Shown here: piece by piece, positions 2,095 through 20,838 of the stretch
Layout of the letters: every line of letters begins with the position of its first letter
Position numbering within the stretch: the first letter of the stretch is position 1
Source of the DNA: Candidatus Hydrogenedentota bacterium
GTDB taxonomy: Bacteria > Hydrogenedentota > Hydrogenedentia > Hydrogenedentales > CAITNO01
DNA: 41,678 nucleotides
Reading direction: 5' to 3'
Assembly (NCBI GenBank): GCA_012730105.1
Contig: JAAYBJ010000223.1
Location: 1 to 41,678 of the forward strand
Position numbers and translations under genes: made by a program
Notes under the pieces: model-generated
The model's input: the letters and a program-made list of their open reading frames with translations, nothing else
Database searches by the model: none
Told to the model about the DNA's origin: nothing

Positions 2095-3600
2095 TTAGCG
2101 CATTTGAACCCACTTGGATTCATGGAGGGGAATGCGGACCTCGGGAAAGGGATGGGCCCCTGTCTCCAGTTCAAGCGTCACCGGGCCTTGGGGCTGGTGA
2201 CGCTGCTTCCACCAGGCGCGTGAAAACCGGGGCGGGGGATTTACGGTGGGCATTGCCAGGCCGCTCACGGATATCACGGCTTCCTCAGCAGAATAGGAAA
2301 GCACTTCAACAGACGCCGGGGACAGCACTGACAGGGGCATCAGCGGCACCACGGGCAGGGCGGTGCTGAAGGGCGTGTGGTAACGCACGGATCGGGTCTG
2401 CATGACGGGCGCGGTGCTGACATATTGCAGGTCCGGTACCACGGCCAAGGGCTGTCCCGGATGCTGTGCGGCGGTTTCCGCCGACGCCTTCTGGAACCGG
2501 CCCACGTCCCGGCCCGCCTGCAGCCAGTGCCAGTTTACCCAGCCCTGGCATAGCATGACGACCACGCAGAGCAGGGTGGAATTGCGCACCACCGTAGAAC
2601 GCCACCGGGGATGGCGCATCATCGTATGAAAAGCGGCGCCCACGGACAGGGCAAACAACGCTGTCGGGATCAACAGCGCGCCGCCGCCGGACAGGGTGAC
2701 GGGGTCCACGGTACGGCCGCCCTGCAGCAGACGAAAAGCCACGGCCCCCAGCAGTCCGAAGGTAAAGAGTGGATCATTTGCGCGACGTATCAGATACACG
2801 GCTAACGCTGTCAGGCATAGCGCGCAGGTCCAGCCCAAAACTGGCCAAGCGCCAAAGAATGCCACCGTGTCGGGAAGCAACCCGATGGGATACAGGATCA
2901 GCAAAAGCGGCATAACCATGTTCGCGGGTTGTAACGCCCCTTCAAAGGCCCATTGCCCGCTGATGAGGAAAGCCACCAGGCCCACACCCGTTATAAGCCA
3001 CAAGCGTTTGCGTCCGCCGGGGACCCCGCGAAAAAAGCAGGCTTCCATGACGACAAGCACCAGGAAGAGGGGAATGGTATCCGGACAGATCAGGATGGAT
3101 GCGATATACGCAAGCGGCGGCAGCCATTGGGAAAGCAGTCCGTGTTCCTTGCGGTAGACGGCGTAGACCAGCAGCACGGTCAGGCCGCAAAGGCACGGAA
3201 GCAGATATTGGATGCCGCCCAGGGAGAGGACCGCTTCCGTTTTTACGGGGTTGGCCATGAACAACACCGCCGCCACAGAGCCCAGCCACCAGGGGCTGTT
3301 ACCCAGCACACGGGTAAGCGCCAGGATCAAGGCCATGCACAGGTACAGCAGCAGCAGATTGGCCAGGTAATACAGGAACGCGTGGCTACCGAAGAGGTAC
3401 GTCATGCCTGAAAACAGGCGGCCCGGCACCGGCCCGAGCAGGTCCGGATCAGCCATTGCCGCGTAGTCCCGACCAAGCGGCGTCAGGGCGAGCATCCAGC
3501 CGAAAACCAGCAGCAGGTAAATGGCATCGGCGACCAGCAGGGCCCGCGGCTTGCCCGGCCGGGATTCCAGCCCCGCATCACCGGGCACAGTATGTTCCAT
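2095..3600 (-). CDS. Multipass membrane protein, GT-C/mannosyltransferase-like topology, function unknown
   Basis: The 501-residue protein begins with a short polar stretch, then about ten hydrophobic segments up to roughly residue 355, and ends in a soluble tail of about 140 residues rich in beta-type sequence. An early loop carries GRDYAAMADPDLLG after the first helix, and the sequence MANPVKTEAVLSLGG follows a later helix. A helical membrane part with an acidic first loop recalls GT-C glycosyltransferase-like proteins of the PMT/TPR-O-mannosyl type, but I see no diagnostic catalytic motif, so this is only a topology comparison. It lies 138 bp upstream of the aminotransferase on the same strand and could be co-transcribed. 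The start is ATG 3598-3600 with AGGAT upstream. Confidence 0.6.
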   Translation of the reverse strand: MEHTVPGDAGLESRPGKPRALLVADAIYLLLVFGWMLALTPLGRDYAAMADPDLLGPVPGRLFSGMTYLFGSHAFLYYLANLLLLYLCMALILALTRVLGNSPWWLGSVAAVLFMANPVKTEAVLSLGGIQYLLPCLCGLTVLLVYAVYRKEHGLLSQWLPPLAYIASILICPDTIPLFLVLVVMEACFFRGVPGGRKRLWLITGVGLVAFLISGQWAFEGALQPANMVMPLLLILYPIGLLPDTVAFFGAWPVLGWTCALCLTALAVYLIRRANDPLFTFGLLGAVAFRLLQGGRTVDPVTLSGGGALLIPTALFALSVGAAFHTMMRHPRWRSTVVRNSTLLCVVVMLCQGWVNWHWLQAGRDVGRFQKASAETAAQHPGQPLAVVPDLQYVSTAPVMQTRSVRYHTPFSTALPVVPLMPLSVLSPASVEVLSYSAEEAVISVSGLAMPTVNPPPRFSRAWWKQRHQPQGPVTLELETGAHPFPEVRIPLHESKWVQMR

Positions 3601-18247: not shown

Positions 18248-19444
18248 TCAGCCCTGCATGGCGCGGACGCTTTCGATCAGGTAGTCAATGGCCTCATCCG
18301 TCATACGCGGGTTGATGGGCAGGGTAACGAGCCGCTCTCCGGCCTGGTCCGCGACGGGGAACTGTCCCGGCCCATAGCCGCGTTTGCGGAAGGCGGTGGT
18401 CCAGTGCAGGGGAATGTAATGGGCGCCGACCTTCACTCCGCGCTCGTGAAGCATCCGATAGATGAAGTCCTCTTTATTCACACCGAACTTTTCCGGGTCA
18501 AGCACCACGGGGTACAGGTGAAACACGTGCAGACATTCCGGTCGCACGACCGGTAGCTGCAGGCCGGGCACGTCCCGAAGCCCTTCTGTAATGCGGGCCG
18601 CGTTACGGATGCGGCGTTGGTTGAAGTCATCCAGTTTTCGGAGCTGAATACTGCCCACGGCGGCCTGGATGTCGGTCATGCGGAAATTGTACCCCGTGTC
18701 GTCAAAATCCTGCCACCAGAACCGTTTCCCCTTCGGGAACCTCGTTTCGTCCAGGGAACAGTACTTGGTGCTGGTCCCATAGACGCGGGTGCAATGGGAG
18801 CGGTACAACGCGATCCGCTCGAAAACGTCCGGGTTACTGGTGGTGATCATGCCGCCCTCGCCGAGGGTGGCCATGTTTTTCTGTTCATGAAAACTGAAAC
18901 AGCCGGTAACACCGAAAGATCCCGCCTTGCGTCCTTTGTACGCGCCGCCGACAGTGTGGCAGGCGTCCTCCACCACCGCGATGCCATGCCGGCCGGCAAT
19001 GTCCAGGATGGCGTCCATGTCACAGCATTGCCCGTACAAGTGAACGGGTATAATGGCTTTGGTCTTCGGTGTGATTTTCTCCTCGATGCGCGCGGGATCC
19101 AGATTGAAGGTTTCCGGATCCACGTCCACAAAATCGATTTCCGCACCCAGCGTGGCTGCTGCGGCCGCCGTGGCGATCCAAGTCATCGGTGTGGTAATCA
19201 CCCGGTCGCCGGGCTGGATGCCGATGCCGACCATGGACAGGAACAATGCGGCTGTGCCGTTGCTGACACAGCGGGCATAGGTGGTGCCGCAATATGCGGC
19301 GAATTCCTTTTCGAACTGAACGCAGGCCGCGCCGCTGGTGGGCGCGTTCTTGCGAAGCACATCTATGACGGCCTGTTCTTCTTCCGGGCCGTATTCGTTG
19401 CCGAATTGAATGTAGAGGTCGTGTTTGATTTCAGGTGTTGCCAT
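18248..19444 (-). CDS. DegT/DnrJ/EryC1/StrS-family aminotransferase (second copy)
   Basis: The 398-residue enzyme has TYARCVSNGTAALFLSMVGI (cofactor phosphate site), GDRVITTPMTWIATAAAAA, VDVDPETFNLDPARIE, VHLYGQCCDMDAIL, VVEDACHTVGGAYKGRKAG and SFHEQKNMATLGEGG, with the Schiff-base lysine near residue 189. These intact motifs predict PLP-dependent transamination of a keto-sugar nucleotide. Upstream on the same strand are an RmlD-like reductase and an OPA-type transporter, which suggests a glycan precursor pathway, but the sugar cannot be read from sequence. The heptamer array ends about 20 bp before its ATG (19442-19444), so its ribosome site and any read-through from upstream genes cross the repeat. 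It shares family but little block-level identity with the aminotransferase at 766-1956. Confidence 0.9.
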   Translation of the reverse strand: MATPEIKHDLYIQFGNEYGPEEEQAVIDVLRKNAPTSGAACVQFEKEFAAYCGTTYARCVSNGTAALFLSMVGIGIQPGDRVITTPMTWIATAAAAATLGAEIDFVDVDPETFNLDPARIEEKITPKTKAIIPVHLYGQCCDMDAILDIAGRHGIAVVEDACHTVGGAYKGRKAGSFGVTGCFSFHEQKNMATLGEGGMITTSNPDVFERIALYRSHCTRVYGTSTKYCSLDETRFPKGKRFWWQDFDDTGYNFRMTDIQAAVGSIQLRKLDDFNQRRIRNAARITEGLRDVPGLQLPVVRPECLHVFHLYPVVLDPEKFGVNKEDFIYRMLHERGVKVGAHYIPLHWTTAFRKRGYGPGQFPVADQAGERLVTLPINPRMTDEAIDYLIESVRAMQG

Positions 19445-19463
19445 GATCGTGGTCTTTCGGGAG

Positions 19464-19538
19464 TAGGGTATGGGGTATAGGGTATAGGGTATAGGGTATA
19501 GGGTATAGGGTATAGGGTATAGGGTATAGGGTATAGGG
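19464..19538. repeat. TATAGGG heptamer array, left side of the four-helix-bundle cassette
   Basis: About ten tandem copies of TATAGGG (top strand), with slight variants at the ends. It lies 11 bp beyond the stop codon of the four-helix-bundle gene and is inverted relative to the array at 19910-19949. Confidence 0.95.
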
Positions 19539-19549
19539 GTGCATAGTTA

Positions 19550-19909
19550 TCAGGGTTTCTTTTGCAGGGTACGGATCATTGTGGTCAACATTTTGCCTAC
19601 TTCTTGGGTCATATTCCATATAGGCATGGCCTGTTCGCGGGGAACAAAATTCAAGCGTACGGCAATGGTGATATGGGTTTCCAATTCGGCGAGTGATCCG
19701 CGCGCGATGCTGAGATGATGGAGATAATCGCCGCGGTGTACCCGACCGTATCCTTCGGCAATGTTTGCCGGAATGGAAACGGCCGCCCGTTGTATCTGGC
19801 TGGTTAATCCGTATCGTTCTTTTTCAGGAAACGCTGCGGTCATTTTATATACGGCAACGACCATGTCCATGGCCTTCTTCCAAACTTCCAATTCTCGATA
19901 TGTCTTCAT
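19550..19909 (-). CDS. Four-helix-bundle protein (S23 / 23S rRNA intervening-sequence type)
   Basis: The 119-residue protein starts MKTYRELEVWKKAMDMVVAVYK and contains GLTSQIQRAAVSIPANIAEG and ARGSLAELETHITIA, the hallmarks of the S23/Avd-like four-helix-bundle family. Members were first seen inside 23S rRNA intervening sequences, and relatives serve as Avd in diversity-generating retroelements; for most, including this one, the function is unknown. The heptamer array touches the gene on both sides. Upstream, AGGG from the repeat falls 8 nt before the ATG and appears to act as the ribosome site. Downstream the array resumes 11 bp after the stop. No reverse transcriptase or rRNA is nearby. Confidence 0.9.
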   Translation of the reverse strand: MKTYRELEVWKKAMDMVVAVYKMTAAFPEKERYGLTSQIQRAAVSIPANIAEGYGRVHRGDYLHHLSIARGSLAELETHITIAVRLNFVPREQAMPIWNMTQEVGKMLTTMIRTLQKKP

Positions 19910-19949
19910 TCCCTATACCCTATACCCTAAACCCTAAACCCTATACCCT
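19910..19949. repeat. CCCTATA/CCCTAAA heptamer array, right side of the cassette
   Basis: About five heptamers (CCCTATA, CCCTATA, CCCTAAA, CCCTAAA, CCCTATA) on the top strand, inverted relative to the left array. It overlaps the last codons of the RmlD-like gene (stop at 19927-19929). Confidence 0.95.
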
Positions 19950-20838
19950 TCTCCACTTCCAGTATCAAGTCCAGCGCGTCTTCCAGGCTTCGCATCGGGG
20001 TTGCCAACAAGGTCTTGGCCCGTGTGTTGTCCAGGGACGCATCATTAGGTCGTTTCGCCCGGCCGGCCATGGCGTTGGAATCGGTGGGGATAACGAGGTC
20101 GGAGGAGAAGCCGAGCCGTTGCGCGATGTGGCAGGCCATCTCATAACGGTTGAGGCGCGTGTTGCCCGCGAGGTGCAGGATGCCTGTGTAGTCCAAGGTC
20201 GCCAGTTCGAGGAACGCGCGACCAAGGGTGATCACATCCACAGGCGTGCGAACTTCATTTTGCGGGAAAGGGACTTGTTTTCCCGCCTCAAGGGCGATAC
20301 GCATTTTTGCTAGGAAGGAATTACCCGCGCCCAGCACGGGCAGGCCCATGACCAGGGAAAGCCTGGTGACCACGGCATTGTCCACGGTATCCAGCACGGC
20401 CCGTTCCGCCCGGACTTTGGTTTCAGCGTAAATATTTACCGGGTTGGGCGCGTCGTTTTCAGTGTAAAAACCTTTACTGCCATCGAAGACGCTATCCGTG
20501 GAACAGAGGATCATGCGCGCACCGGCGTTACGGCATAGCGCGGCCAAGGAGGCGGTGACGCCCACGTTGATTTCCATGGCGTCTTCCGGGTGGGCCTCGC
20601 AGTAATCGATATCCGCCAGGGCTGCCGTGTGAATCACGGCATCGGGACGGGCCGCCTCGAAAACGTTCCGCAATTGTTCCGCGTCCCGAAGATCAAACTG
20701 GTAGGTGGTGAGATGCTTCGTTACGCCTGGCGGCTCCGTCAGGGAGAGGGCGTGTACCTCCCAGTCCTGCCGGGCATGCCAAAGGATACTGCCCGCCACA
20801 AAGCCGCCATGTCCGGTCAATAGAAGTCGTTTTGCCAT
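19927..20838 (-). CDS. RmlD-like SDR sugar-nucleotide reductase
   Basis: The 303-residue protein has an N-terminal nucleotide-binding loop (LLLTGHGGFVAG), FDLRDAEQL, PDAVIHTAALADIDYCE, the active-site YAETK (YxxxK) around residue 135-140 with the preceding CSTDSVFDG, and the RmlD-type tail HLAGNTRLNRYEMACHIAQ. RmlD enzymes reduce dTDP-4-keto-6-deoxy sugars to dTDP-rhamnose; the substrate here is uncertain because RmlA, B and C are not in the window. The gene begins 29 bp after the transporter. Its last six or seven codons (KGIGFRV and stop) lie within the heptamer array, so the original C-terminus was probably replaced when the repeat arrived. Confidence 0.85.
   Translation of the reverse strand: MAKRLLLTGHGGFVAGSILWHARQDWEVHALSLTEPPGVTKHLTTYQFDLRDAEQLRNVFEAARPDAVIHTAALADIDYCEAHPEDAMEINVGVTASLAALCRNAGARMILCSTDSVFDGSKGFYTENDAPNPVNIYAETKVRAERAVLDTVDNAVVTRLSLVMGLPVLGAGNSFLAKMRIALEAGKQVPFPQNEVRTPVDVITLGRAFLELATLDYTGILHLAGNTRLNRYEMACHIAQRLGFSSDLVIPTDSNAMAGRAKRPNDASLDNTRAKTLLATPMRSLEDALDLILEVEKGIGFRV

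Follow-up and report, generated by a model that had tools for sequence, protein, structure and literature searches.

Inverted heptamer arrays around an S23 gene suggest a widespread, probably selfish mobile element of bacterial operons

The window, i.e., the whole stretch of 41,678 nucleotides that was analysed, is contig C182 of a draft genome (G000; 5.6 Mb) of a Candidatus Hydrogenedentota bacterium, and it contains a small cassette lodged between two operon genes. The only ORF within the cassette is an S23 (23S-rRNA-IVP, four-helix-bundle) gene at 19550..19909 on the minus strand, which encodes a protein of 119 aa with a pI of 9.7. To its left lies a TATAGGG array (19459..19538, plus strand), comprising nine perfect units at 19476-19538(+) and degenerate outer units that begin at about 19459; in the sense of the gene, this is the downstream, C-rich arm and reads TATACCC. 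The right array (19911..19949), composed of CCCTATA/CCCTAAA, is the upstream arm, which is G-rich in gene sense (minus strand) and complementary to the downstream arm, the two forming an inverted pair (I2) of 42 nt that is 93% complementary. TATAGGG occurs 15 times in the window vs. 2.3 expected, a count attained in none of 100 shuffles. The S23 ATG is one base away from the right array, and the stop codon is 11 bp away from the left one; in the sense strand, the upstream arm provides an AGGG 8 nt 5' of the ATG, which is likely the Shine-Dalgarno sequence of the gene. The initial annotation had described both the start-to-stop bracketing by inverted TATAGGG arrays and the repeat-supplied AGGG, and its account of arrays and spacings proved accurate. 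In a predicted RNA hairpin (19455..19960, minus strand; MFE -172.1 kcal/mol, z -6.5 against 100 shuffles), the arms are paired and the S23 ORF forms the loop. The cassette is preceded by an RmlD-like gene (19927..20838, minus strand), whose C-terminal end, KGIGFRV, is translated from the inserted array, and is followed by the next operon gene, which encodes a DegT/DnrJ aminotransferase (18248..19444, minus strand) and adjoins rmlD in cassette-free relatives.

The encoded protein matches PF05635 over model positions 1-105 of 106 (134.7 bits, cut-off 33.8), as well as NCBIfam NF008911 and TIGR02436, and its sequence shows kinship to two proteins of solved structure, 2GSC (Xanthomonas XCC0516) and 2RLD. 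PF05635 is the large "four helix bundle protein" family, for which structures have been solved and no function is known. S23 proteins are basic (median pI 9.0), and we know of no catalytic domain in them. No PADLOC defence model was matched by the window protein, Rfam gave no match across 19300-20100, and the comparison with phages likewise produced no match.

Comparison with relatives revealed sites without the cassette. In seven syntenic genomes (G005, G006, G007, G009, G011, G012, and G013), rmlD and degT adjoin without cassette or arrays, their aligned ends being 7-22 bp apart, and among the syntenic genomes compared, the cassette occurs at this place only in the window genome; thus, the whole unit is an insertion. 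The RmlD-like ORF terminates within the array (...KGIGFRV*), a tail not found in its syntenic homologues; in G005, for example, the rmlD frame reads ...LKEEQDHGN and continues beyond the degT start. As read from these alignments, the inserted cassette has swapped the C-terminus of rmlD for an array-coded tail. The empty sites and the array-coded KGIGFRV together indicate that the gene and both arrays came jointly or, at a minimum, that they entered once these relatives had diverged. In this respect, the initial annotation, which had placed the cassette at the 3' end of the RmlD-like gene with loss of the native C-terminus, and had pointed to empty sites and tail-free homologues as the comparison to make, was borne out on each point. 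A second case was found on complete cyanobacterial plasmids. In Calothrix brevissima, a cassette separates an integrase gene from the gene that follows it; in Nostoc carneum and Tolypothrix, the two genes are 3 bp apart, with no cassette. No clear target-site duplication was seen at the rmlD site or at the Calothrix site, where the flanks are only about 87-89% identical. Judged from sequence, mobility of the cassette is well supported.

The anatomy is not confined to the window and recurs in most of the bacterial phyla that were tested. A pattern scan of a genome contig collection, which found the closest relatives, yielded 80 S23 loci from many phyla. At each locus, the 200 bp upstream were compared with the reverse-complemented 200 bp downstream, and a local score of >=18 was taken to indicate inverted arms. 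Such arms were present at 70% of the loci; among control genes drawn from these loci, the figure was 5% (p about 1e-16), and among mismatched flank pairs it was 4%. In about 20-30% of S23 loci, the arms are weak or absent. The best upstream autocorrelation lag was 7 in 85% and 8 in 13% of loci (22% and 11% in controls), and the upstream arm has more G than C in the sense strand at 49 of 51 loci. Because the 80 loci represent the nearest relatives only, a second sample was drawn with a family model, which added 53 loci from the window's phylum, weak family members included; arms were found in 68% of them and a lag of 7 in 44. The family is present in 48 of 68 genomes of the phylum and in none of 14 control genomes.

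What differs between loci is the repeat itself. In G000 itself, contig C179 carries a second, closely related S23 gene (79% identical) whose inverted arms consist of TCGAGGG. Relatives use TCTAGGG, TTTAGGG, GGGACAG, and others, and among S23 genes on plasmids (Nostoc, Calothrix, and Gemmatirosa), the units are GGGAGTA, GGGTGTA, and one of 8 nt. Distinct units were counted at 47 of 52 loci; within a locus, the two arms share their unit to within two mismatches in 29 of 31 cases, compared with 16% of mismatched pairs. Only a weak core, G-[T/A]-Y-[A/G]-G-[G/T]-R, is common to the units (score 4.47 vs. 3.74 shuffled), and a single universal DNA motif was therefore rejected. The search for the same gene-plus-array elsewhere, as proposed in the initial annotation, thus recovered the arrangement in its own genome, in relatives, and in other phyla, with different units.

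S23 elements mostly lie in sense orientation at the borders between operon genes. The upstream neighbour lies on the S23 strand at 55 of 61 loci, and both neighbours are co-directional with S23 at 38 of 50; with co-directional neighbours, the upstream stop codon lies at a median of 1 nt and the next start at a median of 10.5 nt from the element ends. For example, Xanthomonadales relatives (used in place of XCC0516 itself) carry S23 genes at accB|accC, within GGGATTC/GGGAATC arrays, and at carA|carB (gene names read from sequence). A minority of S23 loci are antisense to their neighbours (L081), and a ribonucleotide reductase gene pair houses an antisense S23. Several individual loci deserve mention. 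On an Anabaena sp. 90 plasmid (L078, 2630-3363), a type I-D CRISPR operon has an S23 gene lodged between cas6 and cas4, with a long ACAGGTG/ACAGGGA array ahead of the S23 gene and no clear downstream arm. In L102, L109, and L112, from lineages of different phyla, an S23 cassette (S23 at 3001-3354, 3001-3354, and 935-1288, respectively) occupies one shared place inside a host gene, possibly a DNA methyltransferase, and splits its reading frame. On C179 of G000 (L050, 130-3800), an HmaC/DUF499-like defence ATPase gene carries the TCGAGGG-armed cassette at its 3' end and, in frame in its interior, a further TCGAGGG array coding STLGPRPSTL. In G003 (contig C840; L059, 1500-2105), an S23 gene of the same lineage is interrupted by an insertion of approx. 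245 bp, a sign of copy decay.

Repeat period, in contrast to repeat sequence, follows the S23 lineage. Among 126 loci, the period was 7 in 98, 8 in 12, and 6 in one, with 15 undecided. On an S23 tree built from a short alignment, with many forks open, period 8 requires 6 changes vs. 11.7 in shuffles, and none of 500 shuffles was as low. Period 8 characterizes a Phycisphaerae S23 clade (4 of 4) and a Bacteroidota/KSB1 clade (4 of 5), in both of which the units vary, and the same host classes also have period-7 S23 genes; the period is thus co-inherited with the S23 lineage and not with the host class or the unit sequence. The period could be constant within an S23 clade simply because gene and arrays are inherited together, and not because the protein measures it. 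It is tempting, though doubtful, to suppose that S23 proteins read the spacing of tandem repeats and not their sequence, with each lineage keeping 7 or 8 nt while the word turns over freely. If true, spacing recognition would define a new kind of selfish element, with terminal inverted repeats rewritten in each genome, and would account for many orphan heptamer repeats in bacteria.

Pattern searches also showed that arrays are dispersed without the gene. In G000, gene-less TATAGGG-type arrays occur at approx. 10 other places, two of which are inverted pairs with a short spacer, and they outnumber gene-bearing arrays; TCGAGGG arrays are found only on C179, around the S23 gene there. The dispersed unit is specific to its genome: the Phormidium S23 unit GGGAGTC has 108 matches in its own genome, 2 in a Nostoc, and 0 in eight other S23-bearing genomes, and the Thiohalocapsa unit AGTGGTT has 11 in its own genome and 0 in nine others. 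At one intergenic G000 site with a gene-less inverted pair, the left array is absent from G005 and G006. The fba|iolB junction (named from sequence) exists in three states: it houses one S23 lineage in G007, G008, and G011, a second lineage in G005 and G006, and arrays with no gene in G000. Between G006 and G007, the proteins on either side share 84% and 76% identity, the S23 proteins only 44%, and the units differ, which implies either that the ORF was replaced or that two insertions occurred at one site. Together with the common gene-less arrays, these states fit a family of repeats that includes copies with and copies without the gene. Within this context, the initial proposal of a mobile or repeat-propagated unit stands as regards insertion, which the empty sites demonstrate, and needs amending in that the unit is not rigid. 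Other repeats accompany the arrays: a second dispersed repeat with a period of about 9 (TAGGACCTA-like; L040, 2150-2200, and L044, 120-170) fills the space between the arms of gene-less inverted TATAGGG pairs and is also found in G005 and G006; the string TCGTCCCTACGGGAC, a dispersed G000 repeat, is repeated near arrays on two contigs (L045, 1900-2025; L049, 1918-1940); and an imperfect tandem repeat of approx. 80 bp (GGACCTAAGCGCGAGAAAGTCC...) lies at a contig end directly after a TATAGGG array (L042, 2990-3158).

Taken as a whole, the cassette is probably, in our judgement, one copy of a widespread, IVS-like, operon-borne selfish mobile element. A rather unlikely alternative, though the strongest, is that the arrays are independent repeats, mobile or born by slippage and spread by recombination or by another enzyme, e.g., a Y1/RAYT-type HUH nuclease, with the S23 ORF as a passenger that is swapped within pairs of arrays. 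The excess of gene-less arrays in G000 and the divergent S23 genes and units between conserved flanks at fba|iolB speak for such independence, as do the ten Y1_Tnp stretches of G000. However, no heptamer arrays were found beside the Y1 (4) and RT (4) loci inspected, the arrays are tied to S23 across phyla, their period tracks the S23 protein lineage, and the rmlD site is free of arrays in the relatives that are free of the cassette. A RAYT as local mobiliser was rejected since the inspected Y1 loci lack arrays. It is considerably less probable that the inverted arrays are kept by host selection, as hairpins for RNA processing or translation control that shield an S23 gene of use to the host within operons. 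The mostly sense orientation, the intercistronic location, the array-supplied Shine-Dalgarno-like AGGG, and the strong predicted hairpin would all suit such a role, whereas the patchy presence in the phylum and absence from control genomes, the lack of positional conservation, the existence of empty sites, the different units in close relatives, and insertions at gene ends and within genes do not. Chance simple-sequence repetition or an assembly artefact is scarcely credible: short repeats can mis-assemble and several draft G000 arrays lie near contig ends, but the arrays far exceed shuffled expectation in the window and control expectation in the 80-locus comparison, and the anatomy is repeated in the phylum sample, in independent assemblies, and in complete plasmids, which refutes it.

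The selfish-element reading suggests the following scheme. An S23 gene between inverted arrays of 7-nt, less often 8-nt, units would insert mainly in sense orientation between operon genes and rely on host transcription. The arms would then pair in the mRNA, and RNase III might cut them, for which the Coxiella IVS offers an in vitro precedent, freeing the S23 and host messages; such release would make the insertion nearly neutral. Its place at gene borders, and the possibility of cutting it out of the message, would make the cassette tolerable to the host. We infer that the S23 protein, basic and probably pentameric, acts on the repeats, probably by binding the repeat stem as RNA or DNA, and that an enzyme supplied in trans (a reverse transcriptase, an HUH nuclease, or host recombination) may, together with S23, spread gene-bearing and gene-less arrays. 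G000 encodes RTs and Y1 nucleases that are possible trans actors. Gene-less arrays could also spread without S23. With its genes being for the most part the core of an array-bracketed insertion, PF05635 acquires a testable biological role. The scheme also raises the question of how a unit arises that is matched between the arms yet different in nearly every element.

Several known systems resemble the cassette in part. In REPIN/RAYT systems (PMC3116915), a gene is likewise flanked by inverted short repeats, and genome-specific gene-less copies are likewise dispersed in trans. However, the cassette has no HUH/Y1 nuclease (there is no Y1 match on the window contig), and in place of REP palindromes it has tandem units of 7-8 nt with an almost free sequence. 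The Avd protein of diversity-generating retroelements belongs to a four-helix-bundle family related to the window S23 (bAvd, E 2e-8; PHROG Avd, E 9e-11). Unlike these retroelements, the cassette has no RT, TR, or VR, and RVT_1 gave no match on the window contig; since the curated Avd model scores 36.9 bits, below its cut-off of 80, and an RT is absent from the unit, a DGR/Avd identity was rejected.

The closest known system is the S23-coding intervening sequence (IVS) of 23S rRNA, as in Coxiella and Leptospira. The Coxiella IVS has an S23 ORF, a 28-bp terminal stem, and tandem heptamers (GACAGAT) before the ORF, the number of which varies among strains; it is excised by RNase III in vitro, and its S23 protein is reportedly not produced in vivo (PMC4990558). 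Its heptamers and stem had already been reported. The window cassette similarly has an S23 ORF looped by a terminal inverted repeat, and this shared design is the reason for reading it as an IVS-like selfish element of operons, of which the rRNA sequences would be the best-known special case. It differs in its location between rmlD and degT instead of in an rRNA gene, in its long multi-unit arrays, and in the dispersal of its unit through the genome. The arms also resemble orphan G-rich heptamers, GGGAATC in Xanthomonas and GGGGA[T/C]T in Nostoc, which form intergenic arrays, many of them inverted pairs, and are described in a paper that does not mention S23 (PMC4692102). A search of open-licence literature found no link between S23 genes in general and heptamer arrays. 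These comparisons point to a widespread, unnamed class of array-bracketed S23 elements that slips between bacterial operon genes, in which rRNA intervening sequences, the Xanthomonas and Nostoc orphan heptamers, and scattered S23 genes would be joined.
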